Shown piece after piece: positions 1,399 through 64,000 of a DNA stretch of 64,000 nucleotides; the stretch's first letter is position 1; every line of letters begins with the position of its first letter. Source of the DNA: Coffea arabica (lineage: Eukaryota; Streptophyta; Magnoliopsida; Gentianales; Rubiaceae); the NCBI RefSeq assembly GCF_036785885.1, contig NC_092324.1:33593001-33657000 (forward strand), in the 5' to 3' direction. The notes beneath the pieces are model-generated. The model was not told the DNA's origin. It worked only from the letters and a program-made list of their open reading frames with translations, and made no database searches. A program made the translations under genes and the position numbers.

Positions 1399-1859
1399 TA
1401 GTCACTCCCCTTACATCAAGAATGACTCTAGAAAATGCAGCAAAAACAAGAAAAGGTTAGGAGCAATTGCTTTTAGGTTTCTCATAACCAGGAAAAGCAA
1501 AATTGAAAACGGAAGCAGATTTATTGACTTTCTGGTTTTTTTTTCCAGAAGTAGAAATAAACACGCACACATACAAATTAGATTAACAGGCAGGAGTTAC
1601 CGGTTAAATCGGCTCGAAAGCAATTTAAAGAGACTCATAAAGAATCAACGTTCAATCAATGGGTTACAGAACGAAGCCGCGTGAACCTTAAACTCATAGT
1701 GAAAATCCCACAATCTTCCGACGTGGGTATTGACTTTCTGGCTCATTTCATTGAACTTTCTACTCTACCCCACATCCACAGTCCATTGCTGTACTGCATA
1801 CCGCGTAAAAAGAAGTGGTAAACATTGGCCTTTTTTTCTTCTTCTTCTTCCACTCTTAA
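1399..1859 (+). promoter_or_regulatory. Upstream region of TNL-a, unit A (repeated in all three units)
   Basis: This stretch matches about 26838-27042 in unit B and about 58923-59134 in unit C, each time directly upstream of a TNL-a TIR exon, so it is probably the native promoter and 5' leader. Shared landmarks are GTCACTCCCCTTACAT, a TTATTGACTTTCTGGTTCA block, and GCGTAAAAAGAAG close to the start codon. The leader ends in a pyrimidine-rich TTCTTCTTC run. Here it is uninterrupted, while units B and C each have a transposon just after GTAAAAAGAA. I did not fix a TATA box. Confidence 0.5.
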
Positions 1860-2396
1860 ATGGACTTGCGAAGTTTTGTTGAGCACGAAATGAGAAACAT
1901 TGCCTCTTCTTCTTCTTCTTCTGCTTCCACTCCTAAATGGACTTATGATGTTTTCTTGAGCTTTAGGGGTGAAGATGTCCGAAAGAGCTTTGTCGACTTC
2001 CTTTACAGTGCTCTGCAACAAAAGGGAATTTACACCTTCAAAGACGATGAAAAGCTTGAAAGAGGAAGATCCATTTCACCTGCACTACTCCAAGCTATTA
2101 AAGAGTCAAGAATTGCAGTTATAATATTCTCAGAAAACTATGCCACTTCTTCATGGTGTTTAGATGAGCTCGCAGAGATCATTGACTGCAAGCATGTGTT
2201 GGGACAAACTGTTCTGCCGGTTTTTTATTACGTGGATCCATCTGTGGTACGGAGACAGAAAGGCAGCTTTGATCGACCTTTTGTCAAACATGAAGACGAA
2301 ATAGAGGACAAGGAAATGATTCAAAAGTGGAGAGCAGCTCTTACTGAAGCTGCTTCTATCTCTGGCTGGGATGTTCGCAACACTGCTGATGGGTAA
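1860..2396 (+). CDS. TIR-only ORF of TNL-a, unit A
   Basis: Open frame of 178 aa from ATG to TAA, matching exon 1 of the intact TNL at 28670. A Ser-rich leader is followed by a TIR domain from about residue 27 (WTYDVFLSFRGEDVRKSF). The glutamate of SSWCLDELAEI, about residue 103, is the expected TIR NADase catalytic residue. In an intact TNL, translation would leave this frame through the donor at 2393. Here the intron and NB-ARC exon are deleted, so the frame ends three codons past the TIR-terminal GWDV block. The product could be a short TIR-only protein of the kind known in plant immunity, or simply the relic of a broken gene. Expression is unknown. Confidence 0.6.
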   Translation: MDLRSFVEHEMRNIASSSSSSASTPKWTYDVFLSFRGEDVRKSFVDFLYSALQQKGIYTFKDDEKLERGRSISPALLQAIKESRIAVIIFSENYATSSWCLDELAEIIDCKHVLGQTVLPVFYYVDPSVVRRQKGSFDRPFVKHEDEIEDKEMIQKWRAALTEAASISGWDVRNTADG

Positions 2397-4299
2397 ATTA
2401 CTGACTCTGATCTTTAATTGGCAGGCGACAGAAAATATTGTGGGCATGTGGCTGGACTTGTCTACCCCAAAAGATGTTGTAATTAAGAATGAAGCCTTTG
2501 AAAAGATGAAGAAACTAAGGCTACTCAAAATCAATAATGCTTGTGTTTCTCTCTGCCCGAATTGCATACCGAATGAGATACGCTGGCTTGACTGGCATGG
2601 ATACCCTTCAAAATTCCTTCCAGAGAGTTTCCAAGCTGAAAAACTCGTAGGACTCAAGCTACAATATAGCCGCATCATACAACTGTGGAAAGGGATAAAG
2701 GTACCATCTTGAACTCCGATTTATTGTTGTTTCCTAATGAATCTTGCTTGAACCTATATGATGTCTTTTTCTTCCCCTTTCTTTCTGTCATTTTGCCAAA
2801 AAAACTTTTGACAGTCGCTGGACAAATTGAAATACATCGACCTGAGCTATTCCCAGAAATTAATAAGGATGCCAGACTTCACGGGACACCAAATCTTGAG
2901 AGATTGATCCTTGAAGGCTGTTCAAGTCTTGCTGAGATACACCCTTCAATTGAGCACCTTACAAGCCTTGTTTTGTTGAATCTAAGGGGCTGTGAAAGTC
3001 TCGCAAGTCTGCCAAGTGGCCTCTGCAGATTGAAATGTCTTGAAACTCTTATTCTTTCTGGCTGCAGATTGTGGGCATGTACTGAGCTTAGAAGAGCTTT
3101 ATGTTGATGGAACTGCCATCTCCAAGCCACCATCCTCAATCGTACTTTTGAAAAACCTAAAAACATTGTCTTTCAAAGGACGTAAAGCAATGGCATCTCG
3201 TAAATGTAGAGCATTCTCGCCCTCTTGGTTGCTGGGTCGAAAAAGTCAAGATTCAACTGGCTTGGTTTTTCCATCTGTTGCAGGATTAAATTCCCTAGCA
3301 AGACTAGATCTTAGTGATTGCAATCTGTCAGACGAAGGATTACCTAGCGATTTAAGGAGCTTATCCTCCCTAGTAGAATTAAATCTTGGCAAGAACAACT
3401 TTACTAGTATCTCTGCTGCAGGTATCAAGAACCTCAGTCACCTTCGAATCCTTGAATTAGTTGGCCGCAAGAGACTTGAGAAACTTCCAGAGCTTCCACT
3501 TTGTATAGAACAAGTGTATGCAGATGATTGTACATCATTGCAGAGTGCAACTGATCTGACAAACCATGGGAAGTTACGCTGGGTTTCATTCTATAATTGT
3601 TTCAAGCTGCTTCAGGATGAACAAACTTCCAGCATGGTATATGCAACCTGGAATCACATGCTGAAGGTATTTTCTTTTTTGCAATATACATACCAACTCT
3701 CGGCGTCCACAAAAAACTTTTTGAGACAGAGGGACTACTAGTTTAGATGTGCTTCACAAACTAAAACTTTTTGTTATGTTACTGAGAAAGAGGCCTAATT
3801 TCTTGCTGTGTAGGAATTTTCACCTGTAGATGATAGCCTGATAGGTGGTAGCTTTAGCATCTGTCTTCCTGGAGGGAGCATTCCATCCTGGTTCACCTAC
3901 CAGAATTCAGGGCCTTCAATAACAGTTAAACTTCCTCCAAATTGGTACAACGATGAGTTCATGGGATTCGCAGTTTGTGTTGTTTCTGATTTGATAATGA
4001 CCCCAGTTCCGAGAAACATAGGGTGTGATCTTCTACAGAAAGGTATAGGTTTTGGTCTCTGGTTTACTCCCGTAGATCAGGAGATGAAGCGCTATCCCAA
4101 CATAGTCATACTAGGTTATTTGGAAACTGAAAACATGGATTCAGAACATACTTGGCTAGGATATATTCCACTTGATATTAATATTTGGTCTTCGAATGGA
4201 GATTGGGTACGCAGTTGGACTTCCATTGAAGTGTGTGGTTTTATTAGTATTTTCAAAGCATGGGGAATCAGTCTTGTATACGAGAACGATGTTAGGTAG
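1860..4299 (+). pseudogene. TNL-a, unit A: TNL without NB-ARC, broken LRR
   Basis: Collinear with the intact TNL of unit B but missing the NB-ARC exon. After the TIR exon, the first bases of intron 1 run straight into the last bases of intron 2 (fused segment about 2393-2424, only 32 bp), then exon 3 (2425-2700). Exon 1 ends in phase 2 and exon 3 starts in phase 0, so even splicing of the fused segment shifts the frame. The LRR exon (about 2814-3666) has lost two blocks relative to unit B, one near 2948 and one near 3067, and changes frame. The C-JID exon starts near 3814 and carries GGSIPSWFT and GFAVCVV. It stops at 4297 with TAG where unit B has CAG. Decayed similarity continues to about 4560. 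Confidence 0.8.
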
Positions 4300-4862: not shown

Positions 4863-5881
4863 TTATAAAATAAACTCTCTTCTATCTTGGGAAGTGTTCG
4901 GAGCCCAAACAGCGTAAGCAGCACAAATTTCCATTATTGCTGCACTCTTCAGCCTGCAGGCCCTGCACTTTACTTTACTACAGTTACTATTACAGCTACT
5001 ACCATTCGGGTGCCCACTATGAATCCCCCTCTTAAACGACACCGCACTGCTACTATTCTCCACGTGAGTAGCCGACGACATCTCCATTTGACAAATCCTC
5101 ACCGCCCTGAACAGCTTCTCCGGCAGCTCATCTTCCGACTGTGCCTCCACCAAAAACCCCATGTCAATCGTGACCACCGTGACGTACCCCAATGCCAAGT
5201 GCAAAATCGCGCTTGCGATCGCCGAGCTTCCGGTATCCACGTCGATTTGGAGGTAATTATCGCCCACAAAATAATTGCACTTGAGCGCTTTTCCCAGTAA
5301 ACAGGCGGCATAATTCCCGACGGCGGCTTTCACAATCCATGGGCCCTTGACTATCCGATTCACGATCTTGAACCGGCTGTTCCGGAAATAATCGTCACCG
5401 TGGACGAACCCGTAGAGGAGAGAGCCCGGTTGGAGGCCTTCGTCTTCCTTAGTGGCGAAGTAGAATATTGCGCTGTGGTGGTCCCGGCCGGGGACTTGGA
5501 GATTGACAGCTACAAGGAAAGTTTTCAGACTCTTTCCTTGAAGATTGGGGGATTTGAGTAAGTTCATGATTGGGTTATCCTGTCGGGCGAGGACATGGTC
5601 CAGCTTGGCGTTGGATCGGAGCCAATCGACGCTGGCAGGTTGGAGAAGCCACGGTCCGGAGGGAAATTTTGTCCTTTTAGTCACGTAGTTGGGTCCACGG
5701 AGAGAGAATAAATCACCTGGAGGTGAAGCCCAGCCGTTGGATCCAGTGTGGAGATCTACGTGGTTTAAGGATCCGCGGTTGATGGATTCTTGTGCGGCGG
5801 CAACGGTGGTGGAGCTTCGGTGGCTATGGTGGTGATGGGTGGTGTTTTTGCTTCTGTTGGATAGGAGATTATTTAAAATAA
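4863..5881 (-). CDS. EDR2-like DUF1336 fragment, unit A (open frame)
   Basis: On the minus strand an uninterrupted frame covers a nearly whole DUF1336 (EDR2 C-terminal) domain, about 225 aa at 5732-5058. Recognisable blocks in order are WASPPGDLFSLRGPNYVTK, DWLRSNAKLDHVLAR, GKSLKTFLVAVNLQVPGRDH, KIVNRIVKGPWIVKAAVGNY, LGKALKCNYF and ILHLALGYVTVVTIDMGFLV. EDR2-type proteins are linked to defence and cell-death control, usually with START or PH domains; none is seen here. No credible native ATG is visible. The frame runs on into a MULE inserted at 5882, which supplies an artificial ATG at 5927. Lack of introns across the domain suggests a processed or captured copy. A decayed sister lies at 38690-39665. 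Whether it is expressed is unknown. Confidence 0.65.
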
Positions 5882-7833
5882 GGGATAATTGCAGAAACCT
5901 CCTCAAGGAAGTTTCTAACATTTGCACTGACCTCCCCTGTGATTTGAAAAATTACACTGACCTCCCATGAGGTTACTAATCCTTTGCAAATTTAATCCAA
6001 GTGATTAAAATATTATTTTAAGGAGTGAAATTAGAATTTTGTATCAGATTTGTCCTTTGTACTATATATCCAATGAATGACAAAGTATTATAAATTAATT
6101 AATAATTAATAAATTTTAATGAGTATAATTTATGGACAAACACGTATTACTCATTTAAAATATCTGTGATTTGAAAAATTACACTGACCTCCCATGAGGT
6201 TACTAATCCTTTGCAAATTTAATCCAAGTGATTAAAATATTATTTTAAGGAGTGAAATTAGAATTTTGTATCAGATTTGTCCTTTGTGCTATATATCCAA
6301 TGAATGACAAAGTATTATAAATTAATTAATAATTAATAAATTTTAATGAGTATAATTTATGGACAAACACGTATTACTCATTTAAAATATCTGTGATTTG
6401 AAAAATTACACTGACCTCCCATGAGGTTACTAATCCTTTGCAAATTTAATCCAAGTGATTAAAATATTATTTTAAGGAGTGAAATTAGAATTTTGTATCA
6501 GATTTGTCCTTTGTGCTATATATCCAATGAATGACAAAGTATTATAAATTAATTAATAATTAATAAATTTTAATGAGTATAATTTATGGACAAACACGTA
6601 TTACTCATTTAAAATATCAACTTTTTACGAGCATTTTATTTTTAAATATTTAATTTATGATAAATATATCAATATTTGTGAGTAAAATTCAAAAATTGTT
6701 ATAGTAATATTCTCGTAAAAAGGAAATCGATAGGTTATTTATTTAATATAAATTAAAATTTTTTTAAAAAAATAAATGGCCCATAAAGTATTAATTTTTT
6801 ATGGCTTTCATCCATTACACGAGTAAAGTATTCGCTCTTTATGTGCATTTTATTCTGAATAATTTAATTTATGTTAAATACATAAATGTTTGTAACTAAA
6901 ATTGAAAAAGTGTTATATTAATATTTTTACGGAAGAAAGATTGGTAGTTTTGTATTTAACAAAAATTAAATATTTGAAAATAAATACGAATCTATATTTG
7001 AGCGTAAATATTTGTATTAAATTAAATGTTTGAAAGCAAAATACCCTTAAAGAACCGGTACTTTAAATAGTTACCGGTTCTTTATAGGCAAACACGCATT
7101 ACTCATTTAAAATAACTGCTTTTTACGGATATTTTACTTTCAAACATTTAATTTATGATAAATATATCAATGTTTGTTAGTAAAATTCAAAAAGTGTTAC
7201 AGTAATATTCTTGCAAAAAGGAAATTGGTAGGTTATTTATTTAATATAAATCAAATATATTTTTTTTAAAAAATGACCCATAAAGTATTAATTCTTTATG
7301 GTTTTCATCCATTACATGAGTAAAGTATTAGTTTTTTATGGGTATTTTATTATGAATCATTTAATTTATATTAAATACATAAATGTTTGTAACTAAAATT
7401 GAAAAATTATTATATTAATATTTTTACGGAAGAGAGATTGGTAGTTTTTATATTTAATAAAAATTAAATATTTGAAAGTAAATACAAATATGTATTTGAG
7501 CGTAAATATTTGTATTAAATTAAATGTTTGAAAGTAAAATACCCATAAAGAGCCGGTACTTTAAATAGGTAATGCATATTTGCCTATAAACTATACTCCT
7601 TAAAGTTTATTAATTGTTAATTGATTTGTAGTATTTTGTTATGCATTGGACATGTAGTACAAAGGACAAATTTGATAAAAAATTCTAATTTCACTCCCTA
7701 AAACAATATTTTAGTCATTTGGACTAAATTTGTAAAGGATTAGTAACTCAGGAAAGGTCAGTGTAATTTTTCAAATCACAGGGAAAGTCAGTGCAAATGT
7801 CAGAAACCTCAGGGAGGTTTCTCCAATTATCCC
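5882..7833. mobile_element. Non-autonomous MULE with a 227-bp tandem array
   Basis: Terminal inverted repeats start GGGATAATT and end AATTATCCC and extend through the AAACCTC/GAGGTTT blocks. The flanks are a perfect 9-bp duplication TTAAAATAA (5873-5881 and 7834-7842), the Mutator hallmark. The interior is AT-rich with no coding potential. It holds three near-identical 227-bp copies and, further in, two diverged blocks containing AAAGAACCGGTACTTTAAAT-like sequence. Unit B at about 39690 keeps the unfilled site, so the insertion followed the duplication. It belongs to the same terminal family as 34926-37100. Confidence 0.85.
5937..6617. repeat. Tandem repeat, 227 bp x 3
   Basis: Copies start at 5937, 6164 and 6391, each with CTGTGATTTGAAAAATTACA. 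They are nearly identical; one visible difference is GTACTATA in the first against GTGCTATA in the others. The array is part of the subterminal region of the MULE. The high identity suggests recent expansion inside the element. Confidence 0.9.
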
Positions 7834-8861
7834 TTAAAATAATTATGATAGTATTTTTTGTAATACAACGTATATAAGATAAAAAATAATAAAAAAATTA
7901 AAAAAATACGTTAGAATTTGTGTTTATAATGTATTTGTGTGTATAATGTAAGTAAATTATTTTTTTTTCAAATCATTCCTATCCAAACAACTTCGAACAC
8001 TCCTAAATGGACTTTCCTAGATGGACTTGGGAAGTTTTCTTGAGCAAGAAATGAGAAACATTAATTGCCTCCTCTTCTTCTTCTTCTCCTTCCGCTCCTA
8101 AATGGACTTATCATGCTTTCTTGTGCTTTAGGGGTGAAGATGTCCGAAAGAGCTTTGTCTACTTCCTCTACAGTGCTCTGCAACAAAAGGGAATTATTAC
8201 ACCTTCAAAGACGATGAAAAGCTTGAAAGAGGAAGACCCATTTCACCTGCATTAGGCCAACCTATTAAAGAGTCAAGAATTGCAGTTGTCATTTACGCCA
8301 ACCTACTTCTTCATGGTGTCTGGATGAGCTTGCAGAGATCATTGACTGCAACCACAAGTTAGGACAAATTATTCCGCCGGTATTTTACTATGTGGATCCA
8401 TTTGTAGCGAGAAAACAGAAAGGCAGTTTTGGTAAAGGTTTTGTCAAACATGAAGATGAAGCAGAGGACAAGGAAAGGGTTCAAAAGTGGAGGGCAGCTC
8501 TTGCTGAAGCTTCTTCTACTTCTGGCTGGGATGTTCCCAAAACTGCCAATGGGTAAAGTCACTAGCTTTGTTCTTTAAAAATTTGAACTAGCATCCCTTC
8601 TTTTTGGGCCAATAGTTGGCTATTTGGTTATGATTTTTTAATTGCAATAAGGCGTTAGATTTTTTTTTTGTTTGGTATTTTTTTCCTCTAGGTCATCAAT
8701 CCTTTTGTTGGTGAACTTTTCCTGGTTCACTCCTCTCTCAATTTGGTGGTTTTAGGTGAAGTGTTAATGGTCTTGGTTAAAAGAAATTAGATCTGAGTTT
8801 GACTTGACCAATCCCATGATTCCGATACTGCTACTGATCCATAAATCATGCACCGCAGAGG

Positions 8862-8863
<2 letters not shown>

Positions 8864-8902
<39 letters not shown>
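8864..8902. repeat. (TA)n microsatellite
   Basis: About 18 TA units in a TNL-b intron. A shorter run, about TATATATATATA, is present at the matching place in unit B near 40645. Confidence 0.9.
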
Positions 8903-8905
<3 letters not shown>

Positions 8906-9102
8906 TCGCACATACACACATTTTTCCTCCAAGTATTCAATTTTCTCAGTGTGGTTGGGAAAGCAGAGAAAAAAAAACGTTCTGTACCATTAACTGATAA
9001 ATAATTACATCGATTTTTCTATGAAACCAATAATGTGTGTCTCAGAAAAAAGACAAAATTGTACACAGGGTTCAGCAATAAAGAATAGTGACAACCACAA
9101 AA

Positions 9103-9212
9103 ATGTTAACCAGTGGGCCAATGGCTCAGTGGCCACCAGGGAGGGACTTAAGTCTCTCCTTGGGCTGTTGGCGAGGGTTCAAACCTTACCAGCAGCGAAA
9201 AAAATCTAAGGG
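9103..9212 (+). mobile_element. tRNA-derived SINE relic
   Basis: Contains a good A-box, TGGCTCAGTGG (near 9122), and a B-box, GGTTCAAACC (near 9177), spaced as in tRNA-derived SINEs, followed by a short A-rich stretch. The paralogous introns lack the segment, so it is an insertion. No full-length tail or clear target duplication was found. Confidence 0.55.
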
Positions 9213-9315
9213 TTGTGAGCTCAGAGGCGTGGATAATTGTGCTAGTTTTTGTCAAAAGTATAATCTATTAACATGAAGTGTCTAACGCCTGAAATTTTCC
9301 CAAAGCAGCTGAAAG

Positions 9316-9453
9316 TGTTTGGACAGGAGTTTATTTGGATGATTTATTTGAAATAATTACTATAACTTATGATGTGATGTATATGAGATAAAAAGATAAT
9401 TGAAATTTGTGAAGTAAATTATTTTATTTCAAATCTTCTCAATCCAAACACTT
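9316..9453. mobile_element. Small MITE with AGTGTTTGGA ends
   Basis: Inverted termini AGTGTTTGGA and TCCAAACACT enclose an AT-rich core resembling the MITE at 5857-7999. The matching intron in unit B (about 29876) lacks it. It has no coding content. Confidence 0.55.
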
Positions 9454-12195
9454 TTTTTTTTGTTTTTGGTTGAATTTTTGTTACATGCATTAGCACGTTT
9501 TCATAGAACATACTCTATACTTGCTTGTCACACCTGAATTTCTGTAGCACATCATTTTGTGTGAAAGAGGGGCAGGAACGGTTCCTGGCAATTCACGGCC
9601 AAGATTTGGCCAAAAAAATTGTACGGTCTAGATTTCATCTAATATATCGATTCTAATAACATGTGTGGAACCCGCAAAATTTTGTTCTAAAGTTAGACGT
9701 TATTGAAAGTAAGTCACACCATATGCAAACAAAGTTACGCCGTGTGCAAAATATACATAACTACTAGGAATGGTTGCAACACCTACAATCGTTCCTATCC
9801 CTGTTCCATTGCAACCGTTCCTGCCCCTGGTCCATTTTGTGTTTTGTGGGATGTATGTCAATAAAATTGCCATCAGTTTTAACATTCTCAATGAACCGAG
9901 CAAAATTATTGTTTTATCATCATTTTTTAAAAAAAATTAAATGTATCTCTGTTTTAGCTTGTATCTCTGTTTTAGCTTGCATTTTAAGCTGACATGTTGT
10001 TCCAAGCTTTAGCTCTGCATATAATCAAAATTAGTATCATGTGAATATATTCATGCTTTCACTCTGGCAGAATTTGGCTAGTGTTCTTTTCAACATTTCA
10101 TTTTAGTTTTAGAAGGATCCTTGCCTTCATTCTCGAGTTTATTCTAAGAAGAATCCTTCATTTCATGCTTTAAATCGAATTATTGACTCATGTCATTTCT
10201 ATCTAATTAGATGCGTATAAGGTTATGAAACAGAAATGAAGAAATAACTTATTCCAACCTAAACATTTTCTGTACTTTCATTGATGCCTGCATTCCTATT
10301 AGGAGTTAATTAATTGTACACAAAAGAAGATAAGTAGCAACCAGGTGACTCAAGTCCGATTGTCATATCATGTCAAACTTAGGATGCCAAAAAATCGAAT
10401 CCTTCTCATTTTACTACGTGAAATTGTTTTAAGAACTTAGTAAGTCACGCGTAATGAGCAATAAAACCATATTTGACCCCTAAACCAGTCCATAATGAGT
10501 AAGTCAAAAACTATTCTTCTGTATTCTTCAACAGGTCAAACACGATCATCTTCTGTATTCTTCTCATTTTACCTATTTATAACCCATTTATTTTAACTTT
10601 TTGTAAACTCATTTAAATTCACTTTTGCAAACTAAGTTATCAATTTGTACCGCTCTTTGTACCCATCATTAGCTTTAAATATTTACTTATAATGTTCAAT
10701 AAGCCTAATTATCAATTTTTTTCCATTTATACTCTATGTCACAAAATTACCTATTATTTAATAATTGAATAATAAAAATATAAAAATTTGAACTAAGTAC
10801 TATAAAAATTAATATAAAAACTTAATCCAAAAATTTTGAACCCCTAACATTTTTTTATATATAAATTTAAAATTTCATTTTAGAAAGATAAGAAAATAGG
10901 CTAAAATTTATTATAAATTGGTAATGCTGAAATATGAGCAAGTTAACAAACTAAGAGAAAATAAAATAATAAGATAAAATCAACAAATAATAATAATAAT
11001 AATAAAACAAAAGTAGTTAACACCATGACAAAATGAAAATTTTGAAAAAAAAATTGGTAGGGGAAAAGAAGAGACTTGGGGGGAAGAGAATTCTAAATGG
11101 GTTAATTGGGTTTTATGGGTTACCCAATAATACCCATTTATTAAATGGGTATTATTGGTAACCCATTTATACCCATATATAAAAATTTAAGATACTCATA
11201 CTCATCTATTTATGGACGGGTATGGATAAATTTAATTAAGTGGGTATTATTGGTAACCCATTTATACCCATAAATAAAAATTTAAGATACTCATACCCAT
11301 CTATTCATGGACGGATAATTTAATTAAGTGGGTTGATTTGCCAGCTCTAATGATGACAAACAATGATGTTGCTTGGTACTCCATAATACATTACATTGAA
11401 GTATCTATCTATCATATTGGGGCATCTGCTCTGTAGGAGCATTTATTAGTGTTTCTTCCAAATTAGCATTTGTTAGATCTATCTATTTTGAGAATATGGT
11501 TAATAAATGCAACTCCTCTTGCATGATTTTTAATCACCTTTTATTTTCCTTTTTCATGCATAAGCATGAGTCTAAATGCACCCAAGAAATTCTCGAAGAT
11601 GTGATGGCTAAATTGGGAAGAATCGTAGCAATTGAAGAAAAAAACCAAGTCGGTATTGATTCTCGAGTTCAGAAAGTAATGCATTGCTGAATTTGATGGG
11701 GTACACTTTCTGGGGATTTGGGGAATGAGTGGAGTAGGTAAAACAACCATAGCAAGGGCTGTTTTTGACCGAATATCCATACATTTTGAAGGTGCCATCT
11801 TTCTCCATGAAGTTAGAGAACAATCAAAAAGTCTGGAAAATTTGCAAGAGAAGATTCTTTCAAAAATTCTTTGCTTAAAAGATTTGAGAACCAGCAGTGT
11901 TTCTGAAGGTTCAAATATGATTCAGAGATGACTGTGCTGTAGAAAAGTCCTTATTGTTCTTGATGACGTTGACCACCTAGACCAATTAGATGCTTTAGTT
12001 GGAAAGCATCAGTGGTTCGGTGATGGTAGTAGAATCATCATAACCACAAAAAATAAGCATTTGCTTGTCACACGTGAAGTAGATAGAATTTACAAGGTGG
12101 ACGTGTTGAATGAATACGAAGCCATTCAGCTGTTTAGTTGGCACCCTTTTAAGGAGGACTATCCTGCAAAAGATTATGAGGAGCTTTCGATTGGA

Positions 12196-13027: not shown

Positions 13028-13060
<33 letters not shown>

Positions 13061-13452
13061 GAACATTAAAAAGAAAGAGCCATGAGAAAATGAGATTTTG
13101 TAAGAAAAATGGAAAAAAGAAATATGAGTGTTTGTTTTATATAAATAAGTTATAAAAAAAATTAATAAGATGTGATAGTGCAACGATTATTATATTGGTC
13201 TTCTATTACAAAGGTCATGAGTTCGAATCTTGAAAGCTATATTTTGCAAAACGTAAATAAAAAAAAAAAAGAAGAGGAAACTCGAAAACCGGAAAAAACC
13301 TGTTCAATTCGGTTTCGACGGTTTCACGATTGGACCGGTTTTTGACCGATTTTCTAGCATGATCAACCCTAACATAGAACTGGACCGATGCCATGGCCGG
13401 TTTGTGGTTCAATCGGTCGAACCGGCCGGTCCGGTCCGGTTTTCAAAACATT
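12196..13452. mobile_element. Composite insertion in the NB-ARC exon of TNL-b, unit A
   Basis: The TNL reading is interrupted after GAGGAGCTTTCGATTG and resumes at CCCTTAGCTCTAAAAG, with loss of a few codons. The insertion holds a short open stretch at its left edge, an (AG)n run (about 13028-13059) and a right end rich in CCGGTCCGGTTTT-type repeats ending near TTTTCAAAACATTG, a motif common in plant MITE-like repeats. I could not define inverted termini or a target duplication, so family and exact borders are open. Confidence 0.45.
13028..13059. repeat. (AG)n microsatellite
   Basis: About 15 AG units inside the insertion that breaks TNL-b of unit A. Confidence 0.9.
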
Positions 13453-50946: not shown

Positions 50947-50951
50947 TTCAA

Positions 50952-55000: not shown

Positions 55001-56631
55001 GCTACAAATGGATTTTTCGCACTAAATATAAACCTAATGATTCTATGGACAGGTACAAAGTTCGGTTGGTCGCCAAAGGCTTTCACCAATGTCCTGGTGT
55101 TGACTACTTTGAAACCTTTAGTCTTGTCATTAAGCCAACTACTGTTCATCTAGTTCTTAGTCTTGCGATTAGCCAAGGATGGTTGCTCAAACAACTTGAT
55201 GTCAACAATGCCTTCCTTCAAGGCACTCTCATAGAGGATGTGTTCATGTCTCAATCTCCAGGCTTCATTGATCGTGATCATCCTCATCATGTTTGCAAGC
55301 TACGCAAGGCCATATATGGTCTTAAACAGGTACCCTGTGCCTGGTATCATGAGCTGTGCACCTTTCTTCTATCCTTTGGCTTTACTAACTCTGCAGCTGA
55401 TAACTCCTTGTTCATCTTCTCCAATCATGGAATTGTCCTTTATCTTCTGGTCTATGTTGATGACATCATTATCACTGGGAATAACACTCAGGCTGCACAA
55501 ATTTTTATTGAGCAGCCGTCTTAACGTTTCTCTCTCAAGGACCTCGATCCCTTAACATACCTCATTGGCCTTCAAGTTATGTCTCATTCAGGTGGTCTCT
55601 TCCTCAGTCAACGTAAATACATTTTTTATCTACTCCACCTCACTCATATGAACGAAGCAAAGCCTGCCTCTACACCTATGGGCAAAAACACCTATGGCAA
55701 CAAGTTTGCCCCTTACTCTACACTCTATAACTATCCTATCTGATCCTACCGAGTATCGCAAAGTTATTGGCAGTCTTCAATATCTCTCTCTCACTCACCT
55801 AGACATTGCTTATACGGTGAACAAGCTCTCTCAATTTCTACACCAACCAACAACTGATCACTGGACTACTCTCAAACTTCTTTTTTGGTATCTATGGGCC
55901 ACCTTGGACCACAACATCACACTTTGTTGCGCTTTTTCACTTGCACTACATGGCTTCTCTGATGCTGACTGGGCAAGTAACAAAGATGACTTCACCTCTA
56001 TAAGTGCCTATATCATTTATCTCGGTCATAATCCTATCTCTTGGAGCTTCAAGAATCAACGAACTGTAGTGCGCTCCTCCACTTAGGCATAATACTGATC
56101 AGTGGCCTCTACTGCTGGCGAACTTCATTGGATTTGCTCTCTACTTAGCGAACTCGGTGTCAATCTTCTGCAACAACTAGTCATTTTTTGTGATAATGTT
56201 GGTGCCATGACTCTATGTTCCAATCCGATCTTTCACTCATGCATGAAACAAGTGGCCATTGACTATCATTTCATTCGAGATAAAGTTCAATATGGTCTGC
56301 AACGTGTGTCCCACATCTCTGTCTCTGATCAACTAGCTGATGTTCTCACCAAACCTCTTGCTCACTCTCAATTTGATTTAATGAAGTTCAAGATAGGACT
56401 TGCTTCACCGCCATCCATCTTGCGGGGACATGATAAGAATAATCAACTAACTGATAAAAGATAGAAGATATGATTCTATCTGTTGACTCCATATAGGACT
56501 TTGTTTGATGTAGGTTCCTTTTTCTGGTGTAACTCTCTTATTTTTATGCTCTTGTACATGTATATATTGGGCCATCATGAATGATACCAGGTGCAATTCT
56601 CTCTGCAACACCTCTTTATACAACTTCATCA
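52027..56631 (+). mobile_element. Ty1/Copia LTR retrotransposon, broken
   Basis: Fossil. Short LTRs of about 161 bp lie at 52027-52188 and 56471-56631, with a primer-binding-like TGGTATCAAATC after the left one and a purine tract before the right one. Parts follow Copia order: gag from about 52273, protease (about 53305), GAG-pre-integrase and integrase (about 53700-54200), reverse transcriptase (about 54990-55500) and RNase H (about 55950-56400). It carries roughly ten or more breaks and cannot be active. The two LTRs differ at around a dozen sites by eye, so it is fairly old. No matching target duplication was found; the flank shows a small loss relative to unit A. It is absent from unit A. 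Confidence 0.9.
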
Positions 56632-56862
56632 TGATGAACCGTAATTTGCTCGCTACTTTCCTGGAATTGCTTTCCTTTGTGGTTCCTTTTATAGAACCAA
56701 ACAGGGCCTAAGTAAAGCAAGAATTCTAAAGTAGAAATGAGAAGCAAATTTCTCGAATTGTCAGCCAAAAAGGAGGAAGACCTCTTTGCCTCTTTTCATT
56801 TCTTTTATTTTCTTTGTATGGGAGAGAGAAGAGAAAAGCTAACCATATACACAAAAATGTCT

Positions 56863-57877
56863 TTTTTTTGGGTCGAAATGATAACTTCATTTATATAGCT
56901 ATAAACTATACAGTTTTTGAACAAAGGTTCAATCAAAAAGGACAACTATTCTACGAGCTATTTTGGTGCACTAGTACCGAAGATTGGGATTCACACATTC
57001 CTCATCCAACCAAAGGTCTAGAGCATAATTGCTCAATGTATAATACTATCAGTCTTACTTATGTTAGCAAAAGAGAAAGCGTAGCTAGAAAACAACCAAG
57101 GAACTCTATATCATCTATTAGAGTTGCAATTCGACTACTCCTATGGCTTTATTTTTGGATGTAGTCTAGCAATTTTTTATTGTCCACACCAATCTGGGCG
57201 TGTCTCCATCGTTGGTTAACTGCTTTTTATCATGGCCAACTTCACTGCTTTTGCCTAATCTTGGAGTGAATCTCCTGACATCCTTTCCCTGCACATCCAA
57301 GCTACTTGATGATGTCCTGAGCTGTCAGTTGCCGAGTTTCCTATCCCAGTAGTTAGTTGATCTTTATTTTGCTGGGTATGGATTTTGAGCTGCATTATCC
57401 TTTGTGCATCTTGATGACTTTGATTAGTCCTAATCTGTGCTGAATGCTCTTCCTTGTTATTGTCTTCATGTTAGCTTCATTATACTCAACCCATCCTCGT
57501 TGTGCTTTCTCAACAGTTTTGTGAGGTTTTTTTTTTTTTTTCCTTTTGATTGAATTCCCAGTCATTTTTGGCCTTCCAAGATTGCCAGAGAATGTTGATG
57601 GTCAAGGACACATGATTCTCAGTTGCTCTGATTTCTTGAGATTCAAAAACTGCTGTCCACCATTTTAACAGTTTGTTAATTGCTCGATTCCATCCTAGTG
57701 AATTGGTGCCATCTACTAGATGTCCTTAGCTTTTTTACACTGTAAAAGCACGTGTTCAATTGTTTCTTTAGTCTCTCCACATCCCGAGCAAATAGGACTC
57801 CCTTGTTTAGTTCTCTTGTATATGAGTTCCCTTACTGGTAAAACATTATGTAGGCATTTCCAAATGAATGTCTCTCC
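56863..57877 (-). mobile_element. Second 5'-truncated LINE fragment
   Basis: Minus strand, T-run at its left edge. It is flanked by ACAAAAATGTCT (56851-56862) and ACAAAAAATGTCT (57878-57890). Near the right edge the minus strand reads IWKCLHNVLPVRELIYKR and CGETKETIEHVLLQCKKAK, the zf-RVT region of the same LINE family as 47306-48189. The remainder is more decayed, with stops, so it is older than that copy. Confidence 0.7.
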
Positions 57878-57919
57878 ACAAAAAATGTCTATTCAGAGTT
57901 TTGTGCAATTTAGAAACAC

Positions 57920-58075
57920 ATTTAGTTATAGTTATAATCTAAAAAGATCCTTCTGTCTTGAGTAATTGGTCCTAAATTAACCAAAGATCCAAGCATTTAG
58001 TTATAGTTATAATCTAAAAAGATCCATCTGTCTAGAGTAATTGGTCCTAAGTTAACCGAAGATCCAAGGACAAAA
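57920..58075. repeat. 75-bp tandem repeat, two copies
   Basis: Unit B counterpart of the 61-bp array at 21091. Copies start at about 57920 and 57995 with ATTTAGTTATAGTTATAAT. Each unit has an extra AGTAATTGGTCCTAA stretch. Confidence 0.75.
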
Positions 58076-58865
58076 AATGTGACACACAAACTCCATCCAC
58101 ACTAAAACAATTCAACTGTCAAAACAAAATATCCCTCATGTGTAAGGAACTATTTAACCACTAAACTTTAGTTGTAGATCGGAGGTTCGAACCATAGCTG
58201 CAGTAAAAAAAATTTAAATGAGGTGTTAGAATACCGTTTTAGTTTAGTCGAATCTGTATACTTGTTAGTTCCTTATACAATCTCTTTAGACTCCCTGTCA
58301 TGTAACAAGATATATTAGATTACAGGAACGTTATCTTTGTAACAAAAAAAAAAGTAAGGAACTATTTGGACCTATTGTTAATGCTTAAGGGCTGAATATG
58401 AACTTAGCAGTTCTAAAGACAAAAATACTCCTCAGCAATTACTTATTTGGAACAACAGTGCAAACCTGAAGGGCCTAATTGGCAATCAATTCATTTTTTG
58501 CACAGCTTCTCCCTTTTCCTCACAATGTGAGTTAAGAGGGTTGTATTTTTATCTATTTGGTAGATTTTGGGACACACTTCTAAGAAAAATTTCTAATTAT
58601 CTCATGGAAAAATTGGTTTTAAATTTCAAACATTCAAGGGAAAAAAAAGGGCAAGTGGTATAAAATTTTGAATCAAGAGCAGAGTTTGATGGTTGAATCA
58701 AGAATCTCACCATCATGAATAAGTAAGTAATATAAGATTTACTGCAAGTTCCAACTTTCTCCAATAAAAAAAAGAGGAAAGTAAACACAAAAAGATTGAA
58801 AGAAATTAAAATCTAGGAAGATCTATACTTTTTTTTTGTTGCAAATATTTTTATAACCTACTGTT
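58076..58865. other. Spacer at the unit B/C border, no gene
   Basis: Matches 21280-22204 of unit A minus its MITE and MULE. A SINE-like relic with GGTTCGAACC lies near 58184. The unfilled MULE site is at about 58797-58810. Confidence 0.5.
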
Positions 58866-59134
58866 ACGACCTACACTTGACAAGTAGAGGCATCCATGTT
58901 GGCAAAAGTTGACAGGGCACTTTAGTCACCCCCCTTGCATCAAGAAAGACTCTAAAAAATTGCAGCAAAAACAAGAAAGGGTTAGGAGCAACTTCTTTTA
59001 GGATGCTCATAACAGGAAAAGCAAAATTGCAAATGGAAAAAGATTTATTGACTTTCTGGTTCATTTCATTGAACTTTCTAGTTTCTACCCCACATCTACA
59101 GTCCATTTTGTACTGCATACCCCGTAAAAAGAAG
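58866..59134 (+). promoter_or_regulatory. TNL-a upstream region, unit C
   Basis: Third copy of the TNL-a upstream block, with CTACACTTGACAAGTAGAGG, GTCACCCCCCTTGCATCAAG and CCCGTAAAAAGAAG. It is separated from its TNL by the CACTA element at 59135-63563. Confidence 0.5.
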
Positions 59135-59883
59135 CACTACAAGAAAATTTCCCTATTATGGCATACTTGTTAGGGCACTATTCAGTAAATGCCTCAAATA
59201 AACACTTATTAAGGCATTAGGTAGTTTCTGCCATATTAGCACCTATTAATTAAATTAAAAAAAAAACAATGTATAAGGGACAAACCTTGTAAGAAAAACT
59301 GAAAATAAAAAAATATAAAGAAAATATTTGTAAGGGCATTTTAGAGATGTGCCTCAACAACTATTAGAAGGAAAAACAATTGTTTCATGAAAAAATAAAA
59401 AAAATGCTTAAAATTGGCGTCTAAAAGAAGCGGCAAAATTGTCCCAAATCCCAAATTTTGCAAGATACCTTAACGATTCATTGACCCATCTTTCTCCCTC
59501 ACTCTCCCTCTCGGCCCTCTACCAATCTACCCCCAAATTCTAATCTAACACTTTTATTTTTCATTTACCCATCTCTTTCCCTGACTCTCTCCCTCTCGGT
59601 AGTCTACCCTCAAATTGTTTCTCTCTGTCCTCTGTTCTCCCAATCTCTTTTCTCAGAATTTTCCTAAAACTCAATGCCGGCTCTCACTAACTCTCATCCT
59701 CCCAATCTCTTTTCTTTTGATTTCTCAAATTTATGTTGATTATGGTGGATCCTAACTCAATATCATGAAGTTGCTCCGAATTCTGTTGATTGCATGTTGG
59801 TCGATTGAAGGATTTTAGGACAATCATCACTCACTCTATTGTGCTTGAAATTAGAGGTATGTTTATATACTCATTAATTCCTA

Positions 59884-60193
59884 TTAATTAGATGTATATT
59901 CCTCCATTTTGAATGTCGACTTTATCAAATCCAAAGGAACAAGGAGCAAAAGAGGCTTGATTTTTGTTGGGCATTTTGCTGCAATCATTATTAGCTTGTA
60001 CCCCTTTACCGTTTTGATCATCAAAATTCCATAGCCACCTGATAAACCATCCATGAGAATATTGGCGTCCGACCATGAATCCGCTTCTTGATATAGCACT
60101 GGCAATTGTGGATTTTCCATTACTAGATGTAGCGGTACCGCTGGAATTTCTTGCTGGGTTTGTATCTGGGGAGAAAAAAGGGATTATGGGCAA
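59884..60193 (-). other. Unrecognised short open stretch in the CACTA element
   Basis: Minus-strand frames of 78 and 101 codons overlap here. The longer contains GFMVGRQYSHGWFIRWLWNF. I do not recognise the family. It could be a piece of a captured gene or chance. Confidence 0.2.
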
Positions 60194-62050
60194 TCGAATA
60201 TGTTAATAAGTTAGTTAATTAACATAATAACATTTATATGGTTGAGTCAGACTGTAGAGAAAAATGATGAAGCAACAAATGACATACCACCAAATCTTTA
60301 AGGTGTTCTTTACCGAAAGAAATTATAAAAGAAATAGCAAACCAAGTCTTTGAGGTGTGTAGGCTTCTGAACAACGAACAGCTTTATCTAATTTTCCTTT
60401 CTTGTCTTTGCTTTTCTTTTTTTTTTTTTTTTCACAGAACAGCTTTGATTCCGAATGGTGCACGAATTTTATTGTTTTGGCTTCATGCAGTTTAGTCATT
60501 AGTGAACTTCTTTGAGAAAATACAGCGGCAATCTTTGTTTTTGGTACGATATATATAGTGGCAATCATTGGTATGGATCTTAGATTCCTTGTCTGGGAAT
60601 CTTATGTCCCGCAAAGTTAACAATATGTGTTAGTTTCAGAATAATATATAATCTAGAATAGTATCTTATTTACATGATTAATGTTGGTTATGGTTTCAGG
60701 TACTCCTCTTAATCTCACTTCAAGTGAGTTAATTATTCTCGATTAGGTATATAGTTTTACTCAAATGGGAGCCTTTCAATCTTTTCTTGCAATGTTTCAA
60801 GGAATGGGCTTTTAGGTTCAGAGCAGAGCTCATGTTGATAGAGGCAAGTTGCTCTATGTGATGAAATCAGAGAGAATTTGAGATGAAAATGAGGATTATT
60901 GTGGGCTCATATAGGGATTCAAAGTGTTGAAAGTTTGGTGCTCTGATATGTGTTTTCTTCTCTTTTTTTTTCTTTTTTTTTTAAAAAAAGATACATGATA
61001 TAATTTAAACAAATAAAACATTTTGAAACTAGCGTCCAAATACATAAGATATAATTTAGAAACTTTATATTTGAATGTAAGTTCTTAAGACTGGGTGAAT
61101 AATTATCTAAGACCAGAATTTGTTTGTCCGAGAACATATAGTCTAAGTTTCAACAAAATAATACTCTACTCTAAACTTATCCCTTTTCATAATTGGTTCT
61201 TTTTCATGAGCCTTCATATAACAAGCCCCGTCAATTAGGGAGTCATTATTGTTTAAAAAAATCAATATCTATTTGACTATCTGTCCAGATTGGACTTTCT
61301 TTCTTCAGTCCTTGTTTTCTGTTTCTCCCAGGTTCAATAATTTGCATTTACTATATTATACTGAAGTTGCATTTGGTGCCCTTAGCAGTGACGACAAAAG
61401 TGAGAGTTAACACATCATCTTTCAATCATCAAAAGTCAAAACAAGTCCGGTTCAATTTGCTACGAATAATAGTAATAACCAAATACTAATTCGGAAACAT
61501 CCAGCTCCCTCCATGGCTTCCTCGACCTCTAACTCTATATATATATATAGCTGCTTGGGATCTTCTTTCTCCCAATCATTTCTAGCAGTAGCAGTTGCAA
61601 CTTCAGAGTGAATTTACTCAAGGTAGTTGCTTTTACTTTATTTTGGACAGGTTTATATTTGCTGGTAAGTATTTGACGGAGGAAAAGTGTTAGACTTTGG
61701 TATTCTTGAGCAGGTACATTACTTTATTGGTCTGGTTTTATACGTTCACATGTCTGATCAGTCTTGTTCTAATTTGCTTTTGAATATAGCAGTTGGTTAT
61801 TTTAGTTTTTATCTCATATAAAATGCATTATCTCATATAAAATTATCTCTGGCTATGCCTAATGTAGATGTACCATGTTATAATTTTGGAACAATTTGCA
61901 TCTTATGTTAGCTAGTGATGTTGTTTAAAAATTTATTTAGTTCTTCTTAATTGCTGAAGTTTCATTTTTACATTAAATGTGCTGAATTTTAGTTGTAGAT
62001 TATAACTTTATTAAATTGATTAAATGTTACATGAATTGAGTTTGTTGTTC

Positions 62051-62480
62051 AGGCATAGCTAGGACTAAGAAAGGAAGAAATTCCAGCACCAATCGACTTA
62101 TTGATGAACCAATTGATAAGCATATGGAAAATCAGTCTATAAGAGTGGAAGAGCTTCATAACACAGGTATTAAGAGTATTTGATATTTTTAAATATATTA
62201 TTTAGAGCAAAAAATGGTCATAACTTATTGAATCAATCAAGAATCACTTCAACATCATCTAATCATATGTCAACCTCAAGTTCCAGTCTTAGACCTCTTA
62301 AAGTAAGTTTTTTAATGCATTTGTTTAGTATTGGCAGTCCTCTTTGCTTGATACTGATATGATATTTAGGCATGTTTTGCTATTACAATTTGAACGTGAT
62401 GAGCATTTGATTAGGCCTTATGTGCCTTTGCAGACAATTGCTGATTCAATTGGTACTCCTATAGCTTGGCCAACAAAACT
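62051..62480 (+). pseudogene. Exon-like remnants of a CACTA-encoded protein
   Basis: Three stretches with plausible splice borders: 62051-62164 (ARTKKGRNSSTNRLIDEPI), 62205-62303 (GHNLLNQSRITSTSSNHMST) and 62370-62480 (PLQTIADSIGTPIAWPTKL). The last resembles the VGTxIAWP motif found in proteins encoded by plant CACTA elements. No complete transposase (TNPD/TNP2) is visible. Confidence 0.4.
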
Positions 62481-63604
62481 AGTATGTTTTTCCTTTTCTA
62501 GCTTACAAATTAGGTTAACTATTAATATCTCATATGTTTGTCTCATTCGATAATTACAATAGATTTTAATACATAATATACTTATGCTATAGGTAAAAAT
62601 TTGCGAAGATTGATGTGCTGAAATTCAAAAGTGGACAAGGTGTTGCAGCATATGGATACTTATCCATTTATAGGGAAGTGCTCTAACTGTAAAAGGACAA
62701 AGTGTTGCTGCATATATTACAAGAAGTTGGTCTACTAGCGGTTTAGTTGATTTTAATTTATCTGGTACTATTTAGGTGAAATCGTGGCCAACAATCAATA
62801 GGACATTCTAGCTGTTTCATGAATGTTAAATCAAATATTATGTTTTTTTTGCAAGGATGAAAGTTTAATTGGTTGGTTGGAAAACTACTAGTAGTTATGA
62901 GTACTTTAATTGTAATCATTGATTATGGTGATAATTTGAAAGTGATTTTTCAATCAAATATTGTTGGTTTTTGTCATTGAATGTGAGATGTCCAACATGA
63001 ATGTATGATTATATTGATATAATAGGGATGTTATATTCACAGCAGTACTGTGGCTGGGCATAAAAAGGAAAAAAAAAATACAGTCTATTGAGGCACTTGT
63101 AATTGTTGTGATAAGGGTTTTTCGTAGTAGAAATTTTCTTGTTACACAGCAGGTTTTTGAGGTATTTTAAAACACCTTTAAAGGTTAATATAGAGGCATT
63201 TGCATGCCTCAATAACAGCCATTTCTTGACAAATACTACTATCTCAAAAAACGGACTGTTAAGGCATTTTTAAGCGTCAACTTAAAGTTAAGATGGCATT
63301 ATTTTGTGCCTCTAAAAAGTTGAGATTTTGAAAGTTGAATCCCAATTAAGGCATTTTTTGGTGTAAGCATTATAACCTTGTTTTGGCACTTCTAAATGTC
63401 TCAATTGTTTTCTATGTCGTGGCACTTAATTGTGCCTTAAGGAGCTTTTGTGACATAGGTTTTACATGGCACACTAAGTATGTGCCTCAAAAAATTAAGT
63501 GCCTCAACAAAGTGTGACTTGTGACATTTTGATGCGCCTCTATAAGCGGCTTTTCTTGTAGAGGGGTAAAGATTGCCCTCATTTTCTTTTTCTTCCACTC
63601 CTAA

Positions 63605-64000
63605 ATGGACTTGCGAAGTTTTGTTGAGCAAGAAATGAGAAACATTGCCTCTTCTTCTTCTTCTGCTTCCACTCCTAAATGGACTTATGATGTTTTCTTG
63701 AGCTTTAAGGGTGAAGATGTCCGAAAGAGCTTTGTCGACTTCCTCTACAGTGCTCTGCAACAAAAGGGAATTTACACCTTCAAAGACGACGAAAAGCTTG
63801 AAAGAGGAAGATCCATTTCACCCGCACTAATCCAAGCCATTAAAGAGTCAAGAATTGCAGTTATAATATTCTCAGAAAATTATGCCACTTCTTCATGGTG
63901 TTTAGAGGAGCTCGCAGAAATCGTTGACAGCAACCATGTGTTGGGACAAACTGTTCTGCCGGTTTTTTATTACGTGGATCCAACTGTGGTACGGAGACAG
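63605..64000 (+). CDS. TNL-a, unit C: TIR exon, cut by the window end
   Basis: ATG start and 132 open codons to the window edge. The Ser-rich leader leads into WTYDVFLSFKGEDVRKSF and SSWCLEELAEI. Compared with units A and B, SFRGED reads SFKGED and CLDEL reads CLEEL, both in conserved TIR positions; the presumed catalytic Glu is kept. The promoter is separated by a CACTA element. Whether the rest of the receptor is intact lies outside the window. Confidence 0.8.
   Translation, partial: MDLRSFVEQEMRNIASSSSSASTPKWTYDVFLSFKGEDVRKSFVDFLYSALQQKGIYTFKDDEKLERGRSISPALIQAIKESRIAVIIFSENYATSSWCLEELAEIVDSNHVLGQTVLPVFYYVDPTVVRRQ

Follow-up and report, generated by a model that had tools for sequence, protein, structure and literature searches.

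The window, a 64,000-nucleotide stretch of Coffea arabica contig C15, belongs to a long tandem array of TNL-type resistance genes, most of them broken, that spans about 33.49-33.68 Mb of the contig. In keeping with a coffee genome, the best PDB matches of an N-methyltransferase exon on C17 are methyltransferases of xanthosine and 3,7-dimethylxanthine (2eg5, 2efj). Within it lie two units in forward orientation, unit A (1399-26775) and unit B (26776-58865), and the start of a third, unit C (58866-64000), which comprises an upstream block, a CACTA-like insertion and a TNL-a TIR exon from 63605. Upstream of the window we found a spacer (U1), a TNL-a with a TNL-b remnant (U2), a full unit (U3) and a partial one (U4). 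A ~12-kb LTR retrotransposon occupies the junction between U4 and unit A and interrupts the unit A upstream block; its 3′ LTR, a repeat dispersed genome-wide, forms positions 1-1202 (forward strand), and the partner LTR lies at C15:33582213-33583295 (95.9%). The right flank of the array is repeat DNA and cannot serve as an anchor for background divergence.

The sole uninterrupted TNL lying wholly in the window is TNL-a of unit B (28670-35003, forward strand), with exons at about 28670-29172, 31227-32313, 32440-32715, 32835-33920 and 34065-35003. Pfam domains for TIR, NB-ARC, winged helix, LRR and C-JID were identified, with TIR, NB-ARC and LRR following one another in one open gene with consistent splice sites and the C-JID domain after the LRR (PF20160, E 3.3e-24); the final codons extend into the adjoining element. 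The MHD motif is usual in such receptors, if not indispensable. MHC takes its place in eight of the nine tblastn alignments extending across the motif (a-type and b-type copies together with one from C16), and the inverted TNL described below has MHP there. Roq1 (PDB 7jlv) aligns with the product of the unit B NB-ARC exon (residues 1-334 of 357, E 6e-85), and unit B TNL-a shares its TIR and C-JID domains, although the aligned Roq1 has MHD rather than MHC. Unit B TNL-a should be an ordinary TIR-domain immune receptor with a predicted role in immunity. TNL-a of unit A (1860-4299, forward strand) is an incomplete TNL: the TIR exon is open and the C-JID exon present, the NB-ARC exon is deleted (junction about 2417/2419), and the LRR exon has an internal deletion and a frame break. 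Unit C has a complete, uninterrupted TNL-a that continues past the window (C15:33656605-33662913), the LRR of which differs by 6.9% from TNL-b and by 7.8% from TNL-a of unit B; because a single clade of all TNL-a LRRs is not rejected (p 0.51), we do not claim that this gene is chimeric.

Between the two TNL genes lies a DUF1336 (EDR2_C) copy on the opposite strand. The sequence-only reading that preceded this work had called it a fragment, which does not describe unit A, where a 362-codon stop-to-stop frame (4863-5951, reverse strand) holds the full EDR2_C domain (PF07059, E 2.1e-70); the unit B copy (38691-39700, reverse strand) is a pseudogene with 8 stops, and that of U4 is reduced to a 51-bp remnant. 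An origin as a retrocopy is unsupported, as a stand-alone relative (L036, C16:31211.2k) likewise lacks introns across the region of similarity.

The TNL-b copies are relics. TNL-b of unit A (8015-15422, forward strand) is a pseudogene with frame breaks in TIR, NB-ARC and LRR and no C-JID exon, and in that of unit B (39828-43381, forward strand), also a pseudogene, the NB-ARC exon has given way to ~1.28 kb of unrelated sequence (40740-42024) that includes a degenerate TTTAGGG-like array. Each of the four C15 TNL-b genes that have an LRR exon is broken by frame breaks, stops or missing exons, as are both of those read on C16, one of which has exon matches from exon 3 onward alone. The C-JID exon is missing after each of the four C15 copies, which bears out the earlier suggestion that its loss came before duplication. 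The same four are followed by a TNL-b-specific repeat block at the exon 4 end (15422-15860, forward strand, in unit A), an inverted copy of which occurs at C15:33665.6k. In paired NLRs, sensor and executor genes stand head-to-head in divergent orientation and both are intact; TNL-a and TNL-b are arranged head to tail and TNL-b is broken, and we therefore rejected such a pair.

Transposable elements are found throughout the units. The spacer of unit A contains a PIF/Harbinger-like element (18197-20713) with a pair of 21-nt terminal inverted repeats (I6, 90% complementary) and a TWA-type target site duplication (TSD), TAA, flanking both ends; no frame of 120 or more codons was found within it. 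Its unit B counterpart (47043-56708, ends placed by offset from unit A) is interrupted by part of a LINE (47307-48190), by a solo LTR (49250-50945, with TTCAA as its TSD) and, at about 52024-56633, by a Copia element with several separate frames. A candidate second array on C19/C20 was discarded, as the main match begins 5 bases left of the Harbinger, is otherwise confined to the element, and is read as another insertion of it. Downstream in unit A, the element at 22205-26756 (forward strand) has the long terminal inverted repeats (~390 bp), 9-bp TSD (AAGGAATTA) and MULE transposase domain of a Mutator-like element; its site is empty in unit B and it is present on C16. At 5868-7843 lies an AT-rich element whose terminal inverted repeats are ~295 bp long (GGGATAATT...) and which is not at this site in U3 or unit B; an element at 34925-37101 has related terminal repeats and ~188-bp tandem repeats and hosts a 706-bp hAT-like insertion (35086-35791, TSD GTTTAGAT). 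Unit B also has a MITE (46390-46784; terminal inverted repeats of ~143 nt, 9-bp TSD GGACAAAAT) that is absent from unit A, and the CACTA-like insertion of unit C (about 59135-63562) has no clear target duplication. Pack-MULEs are characterized by long terminal inverted repeats and captured gene fragments. Two candidates in the window resemble them in both respects and in having further copies elsewhere, although their target duplications are only partly clean (7 bp; imperfect 9 bp): one at 27043-28586, with terminal repeats of ~288 bp, an interior that matches two other sources and four more copies spanning 934 of the 946 bases inside it, and one at 37110-38538, which carries a PB1-domain gene fragment and is common to C16 at 99%.

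We then compared the order of these features between units. Aligned against each other, units A and B give a single collinear chain (17 blocks, 12,792 aligned columns, 80-97% identity, score 16,459) that runs from the TNL-a upstream block through DUF1336 and TNL-b to the Harbinger-bearing spacer and takes in non-coding landmarks, namely the upstream block, the spacer and the repeat block where TNL-b exon 4 ends. When unit B was cut into 1-kb blocks and placed in random order, the best chain scored 5,412-7,968 in all ten trials; the spacers thus match collinearly, beyond scattered TNL similarity, as had been proposed. The proposal of three tandem copies of the four-part unit held for A and B and failed for C. 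Inside the window unit C consists of the upstream block and first TIR exon alone (A-C and B-C chains of 675 and 724 columns), and on extending past 64000 we found no match to DUF1336, TNL-b or spacer up to C15:33690000; the intact TNL-a is instead followed by a divergent TNL in inverted orientation. The repeat is genuine, yet it is no simple triplication.

Phylogenetic analysis pointed the same way. A copy entered the divergence and tree sets if it spanned at least 60% of a module and was less than 1.6 times as long as that module, a filter that left out U4 TNL-a (TIR, LRR), U3 TNL-a (TIR) and C15 unit B (second spacer) and gave a DUF1336 set of only three rows. A sister relationship of A and B was rejected for both TNL-a (p-AU 3.7e-5) and TNL-b (5e-4); the closest C15 relatives of A were U3 and U2 in the TNL-a LRR and U4 in the TNL-b LRR. 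TIR exons fell into two clades by gene type across units (TNL-a clade 100/97), and a clade of the two unit A genes was rejected (p 1e-66), indicating that TNL-a and TNL-b were both in the unit before it multiplied. By module, A-B divergence was lowest in the TNL-a TIR (2.9%) and highest at the unit end (12.9%). One may postulate that A, B and C arose recently through two successive tandem copies, all their differences being later insertions, and the adjoining collinear units and the TNL-a TIR exons, 2.9-5.6% apart among the three, would suit this. It is very improbable, however, given the rejected A-B sister relationship in both genes, the additional partial or full units to the left, the end of unit C after TNL-a and the spread of module divergences. 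A later duplication is marked by a deletion junction common to U2 and U4 (4909/8501) and by blocks at 96.6-99.2% between U1-U3 and U4. With tandem copies, pseudogenes and module relationships that differ, the array has the features of a birth-and-death R-gene cluster.

The array is also found on the homoeologous chromosome. We read C16:30090001-30150000, five 3.6-kb loci (one inside that range) and one 2.3-kb stretch; the rest of the C16 array was assessed from match tables that score best candidates only. C16:30097349-30150000 repeats the order and junctions of the window from 13756 to beyond 64000, including the Copia element, the PB1 Pack-MULE, and the inverted TNL that comes after unit C. 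This argues against an assembly artefact from 13756 on; to the left of that point the match tables alone lend support, placing TNL-a, DUF1336 and TNL-b in order at C16:30062677-30074029. Just left of 13756 the best match of C16 is U3, and C16:30090001-30095124 had no match among those listed. Outside the near-identical tract described below, homoeologous copies differ by 0.7-3.3% by module, and by 6.1% at the unit-B end. A-B divergence is generally greater than homoeologue divergence, although the ranges overlap (2.9% for the A-B TNL-a TIR against 3.3% for spacer 1 of B).

These comparisons bear on the timing of the insertions. The earlier reading had proposed a tandem duplication of the TNL-a/DUF1336/TNL-b/Harbinger unit with insertions ordered before and after it. 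The duplicated unit and most of the order stand: the Harbinger is in every spacer seen (U1 in part, U3, U4, A and B), consistent with its insertion before duplication, and the MULE, LINE and solo LTR have empty sites, consistent with a later arrival. A single duplication does not stand, and because the sister relationship of A and B was rejected the insertions cannot be dated against one. The later class is moreover split by presence on C16: the Copia element, the PB1 Pack-MULE and the MULE and Pack-MULE of the near-identical tract are common to both chromosomes, and the LINE, MITE, solo LTR, hAT-like and CACTA-like insertions are on C15 and not C16. Among the insertions characterized none was identified as a SINE, an element the earlier reading had placed in this class; the 706-bp insertion at 35086-35791 has hAT features. 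Comparison with C16 thus dates insertions better than "the duplication" taken as one event.

The transposons in spacers and near unit edges would also suit a route other than crossing-over, in which they dispersed the entire unit, or a large Harbinger or MULE captured it. We regard this as highly unlikely. No terminal repeat pair or TSD was seen enclosing a unit, the spacer continues straight into the next TNL-a upstream block, and the genome matches listed sit in one array per chromosome, with no dispersed whole-unit copy with flanking TSD among them.

The comparison of C15 with C16 revealed a tract of near identity with sharp edges at 21900-34133, which contains the MULE, the Pack-MULE at 27043-28586 and TNL-a of unit B. 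Substitutions were counted in collinear alignments of more than 92% identity and more than 200 bases. We counted 13 in 12,210 sites (one listing gives 14 mismatch positions, one of them where two alignments overlap), with 0 in 6,519 sites of the left part and 13 in 5,691 of the right; gaps were uncounted, including ~55 unaligned C16 bases near 30820. Outside the tract there were 725 per 29,018 sites (2.5%), a lower bound given these thresholds. The lowest 12-kb stretch held 13 substitutions, and in 5,000 shuffles of 250-site bins this number never fell below 91. The absence of substitutions over 6.5 kb of repeat-rich DNA is what would be expected if reads of one homoeologue had been placed in both chromosomes. 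This is unlikely, since the small indels (22228, 22420-22422, 22479, 29285-29296 and 33945-33950) show two separate sequences, the 13 right-half substitutions also distinguish them, and the published assembly draws on HiFi and Hi-C data from a di-haploid accession (PMC11018527). An old common segment held similar by strong purifying selection on its intact TNL-a is barely credible: the half with zero substitutions is mostly MULE, Pack-MULE and upstream DNA rather than gene, and the C-JID exon directly right of the tract edge has many C15-C16 differences. The best reading is a recent homoeologous exchange or conversion that moved the MULE, the Pack-MULE and the TNL; the exchange, its direction and its date are inferred.

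From the unit order, broken frames, trees, insertion sites and tract, the history we favor, with a probability of roughly 80%, is that a TNL array now on both homoeologues was built by head-to-tail multiplication before the subgenomes split, underwent birth and death, and later experienced an exchange or conversion of ~12 kb. The ancestral segment would have comprised TNL-a, an opposite-strand DUF1336 gene, TNL-b and a Harbinger-bearing spacer, and would have multiplied before the split of the two coffee subgenomes, most likely via unequal crossing-over. Loss, truncation, shuffling and transposon insertion would then have altered the copies. At a more recent date, a ~12-kb block comprising the MULE, the Pack-MULE and the unit B TNL-a may have moved between the homoeologous chromosomes by exchange or gene conversion, such that both carry nearly the same intact receptor gene. 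Some observations sit uneasily with this history: C16 resembles U3 most just left of 13756, the module ranges of A-B and homoeologue divergence overlap, part of the C16 array is in opposite orientation by match tables, which unequal crossing-over alone does not produce, and the unit-B end, 6.1% apart between supposed homoeologues, is 3.8% from another C16 copy.

A comparable coffee resistance-gene cluster is SH3, a CNL locus with 3-5 copies per genome in C. arabica (Ribas et al. 2011, PMC3113787). In the parts of that report available to us, tandem duplication, deletions and gene conversion are described, along with copies older than the divergence between C. canephora and C. eugenioides and a subgenome exchange of ~50 kb given as unpublished data (PMC3113787); the array studied here would share these features. 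The present array differs in its TNL class, composite four-part unit, more numerous copies and heavy transposon load, transposons being said to have no role at SH3 (PMC3113787). A coffee NLR inventory, in the sections available, reports NLR clusters with pseudogenes and counts just 17 TNL genes for C. arabica, located on chromosomes 8, 10 and 11 (PMC9301388); contig pairs 15/16, 19/20 and 21/22 would fit if contigs are numbered in pairs. Some of our TIR matches, strong on C13/C14 and weaker on C3/C4 and C9/C10, fall outside these chromosomes; the inventory counted complete NB-ARC loci, and its available text mentions neither the unit of this array, nor the array's pseudogene state, nor the tract common to the homoeologues (PMC9301388). 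Judged by titles and abstract openings, we found no paper about this array.

Of 42 TIR-domain matches in the 1.198-Gb genome, counted as exon pieces with three loci counted twice, 25 lie in this array when both chromosomes are taken together, and it is thus probably the crop's main TNL reservoir. We lean slightly towards the view that, in this allotetraploid, conversion or exchange replaced one subgenome's intact TNL with its MULE and Pack-MULE, and that within units A and B only the uninterrupted receptor was carried while its neighbors decayed; polyploidy would then have let a receptor be copied between subgenomes, in a family with MHC for MHD in the a- and b-type copies that cover the motif. 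The insertions with empty sites and the tract edges are ready markers for dating these steps in the diploid parents, and the array is a clear case for asking whether subgenome exchange preserves working receptors while tandem copies decay.

Self-comparison of the window joined unit A (1399-26775) and unit B (26776-58865) in a collinear chain of 17 blocks with a score of 16,459, against 5,412-7,968 in ten trials in which the 1-kb blocks of unit B were placed in random order, and all landmarks named in the sequence-only reading (the TNL-a upstream block, DUF1336, TNL-b with the repeat at its exon 4 end, and the Harbinger-type element) were present in both units. That reading had proposed three tandem copies; the collinearity of A and B stands, but extension past 64000 showed that the order is not repeated, as unit C (from 58866) has a complete TNL-a, which runs past the window edge, while the other unit parts are absent, and a divergent inverted TNL follows on C15, the contig that holds the window at positions 33593001-33657000. 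Further units, some of them partial, lie left of the window in the 200-kb stretch of C15 examined: U1, a spacer; U2, a TNL-a plus the remnant of a TNL-b; U3, a full unit with an insertion that splits its DUF1336; and U4, in which DUF1336 is a 51-bp remnant only. The count of three was thus bounded by the window edge, because units continue to the left and unit C ends after TNL-a. An approximately 12-kb LTR retrotransposon (C15:33582213-33594202; LTRs 95.9% alike) occupies the U4/A junction, its 3' LTR forming positions 1-1202.

Divergences and trees were estimated only from copies covering at least 60% of a module and less than 1.6 times its length, a filter by which U4 TNL-a is absent from the TIR and LRR sets and U3 TNL-a from the TIR set; the DUF1336 divergence set comprised three rows. 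TIR exons formed a TNL-a clade and a TNL-b clade across units, and a grouping of A's two genes was rejected (p 1e-66). In the LRR tree, TNL-a of A grouped with U3 (91/92), nested with U2 in a clade (100/99), and TNL-b of A and its C16 counterpart grouped with U4 (100/99); an A+B grouping was rejected for both TNL-a (p 3.7e-5) and TNL-b (p 5e-4). Between A and B, divergence was 2.9% for TNL-a TIR, 4.3% for spacer 1, 7.9% for TNL-a LRR, 7.2-8.5% for TNL-b, 12.0% for DUF1336 and 12.9% for the unit end. These trees and module divergences of 2.9-12.9% mark the unit as old, with a mosaic make-up, and show that A and B are not sisters. Because U2 and U4 have a common deletion junction (window 4909/8501) and U1-U3 share blocks with U4 at 96.6-99.2% identity, copying among these units postdates the A-B separation.

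Gene state was scored with the five exons of unit B TNL-a as queries. TNL-a of B and of C are open through all exons. The inverted TNL likewise reads through all of its exons apart from one stop where the first exon was aligned, although the TIR match in that gene is open. TNL-a of A lacks NB-ARC, U2 TNL-a has one stop in NB-ARC and gave no TIR exon match to these queries, and U3 and U4 carry frame breaks; all four C15 TNL-b copies with an LRR exon are broken. A C-JID exon follows six of six TNL-a and none of four TNL-b on C15 (Pfam confirmed the domain itself for TNL-a of A and B), and the exon 4 end repeat was found at all four C15 TNL-b. Unrelated DNA with degenerate TTTAGGG-like repeats replaces the NB-ARC exon in unit B TNL-b, and likewise on C16; the telomere-like array at 41056-41188 may be a break-repair scar. 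The DUF1336 copy of unit A (4863-5951, minus strand, between A's two TNLs) spans 362 codons stop-to-stop with a whole EDR2_C domain and could be a working stand-alone gene; that of unit B has eight stops.

TNL-a of B is predicted to encode an ordinary TIR-NB-ARC-LRR-C-JID receptor. In the PDB its NB-ARC exon matches Roq1 best, and its TIR keeps the WCLDELAE segment, which contains the catalytic glutamate. At the end of the NB-ARC exon (about 32191-32217), MHC stands in place of MHD; among the copies examined, MHC occurs in eight of nine covering alignments, a-type and b-type, and MHP in the inverted gene, a non-canonical motif across the family. Changes at MHD can alter activity, any effect of the MHC variant being hypothetical. 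The open frame of TNL-a of B ends inside the terminal inverted repeat of the neighbouring element (final codons within 34925-35003), and a transposon may therefore encode the C-terminus of the protein.

An exon of a methyltransferase cluster on C17 gave the coffee enzymes xanthosine methyltransferase and 3,7-dimethylxanthine methyltransferase as its best PDB matches (2eg5, E 9.8e-72; 2efj, E 5e-70), in keeping with Coffea arabica as the species. We took C15 and contig C16 as a homoeologous pair, inferred to be chromosome 8 from contig numbering and from PMC9301388, which reports TNLs on chromosomes 8, 10 and 11; TIR matches on C13/C14, C3/C4 and C9/C10 do not agree with this list. Listed C16 matches to the family extend over about 29.87-30.16 Mb in both orientations, and in the match tables the array ends as on C15. 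At C16:29929816-30050509 many of the listed TNL, DUF1336 and spacer matches have the reverse orientation; the array on C16 therefore contains either a large inverted segment or copies in inverted orientation, unlike the C15 stretch examined. Unit order recurs from 13756 rightward on C16:30097349-30150000, and the match tables place TNL-a, DUF1336 and TNL-b pieces in unit order at C16:30062677-30074029, where the TNL-a could correspond to either A or B, its TIR exon diverging by 2.5% from that of A and by 2.4% from that of B.

The relative dating in the sequence-only reading holds in part: the Harbinger-type element (2,517 bp, TAA target duplication), the exon 4 end block and C-JID loss in TNL-b precede unit multiplication, but A and B are not the sister units it assumed. 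Among the insertions it placed afterwards, the LINE piece (47307-48190, target duplication GATGAACGATGATT) and solo LTR (49250-50945, TTCAA) are confined to C15 with empty C16 sites, where C16 has a small change of its own at the LINE site; the MULE is common to C16. Also C15-only, with empty C16 sites, are a hAT-like element (35086-35791, GTTTAGAT), a MITE (46390-46784, GGACAAAAT) and a CACTA-like element (about 59135-63562) whose target duplication is not clear-cut. Post-multiplication insertions common to C16 are a Copia, the 34925-37101 element and a Pack-MULE-like element (37110-38538) that carries part of a PB1-domain gene. Five other copies of this element match the full query, at 90-94%, on C14, C12, C6, C3 and C21, and its source may be marked by partial matches on the C13/C14 pair. 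Another Pack-MULE-like element (27043-28586) has an interior that joins two sources, query 1-559 matching the C3/C4 pair at 97% and 558-946 many other places.

Positions 21900-34133 form a tract of near-identity between C15 and C16, containing the MULE, the Pack-MULE at 27043-28586 and unit B TNL-a as far as the C-JID exon start. Its left part (21900-28423) has 0 substitutions in 6,519 sites and its right part (28424-34133) 13 in 5,691; outside it, 725 of 29,018 sites differ (2.5%; 1.66% at 13756-21899, 1.56% at 34134-44853, 4.21% at 51186-59134), a lower bound in counts from collinear alignments above 92% identity and 200 bases. Against the 13 substitutions observed, no 12-kb stretch in 5,000 shuffles of 250-site bins held fewer than 91. 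The two contigs carry different indels inside the tract. The tract is best read as a recent exchange or conversion between homoeologues, and its MULE and Pack-MULE, also present on C16, may be on both chromosomes through the tract itself. Equating 2.5% with the parental split of 4-6 million years given in PMC11018527 yields, crudely, a tract age of roughly 0.2 million years. This kind of event is already known, since PMC3113787 reports an exchange between coffee subgenomes, of about 50 kb, at the SH3 CNL cluster.

The array is real and mostly as first described, and it is of an ordinary kind, a TNL array evolving by birth and death. Overall confidence is 0.80, tempered by the overlap of homoeologous and between-unit divergences. 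TIR-domain matches, which are exon pieces with three loci counted twice, number 42 genome-wide, of which the C15 array holds 10 and the C16 array 15. The added value lies in the homoeologous tract and in a single array, across both chromosomes, that holds 25 of the 42 matches in a crop poor in TNLs.
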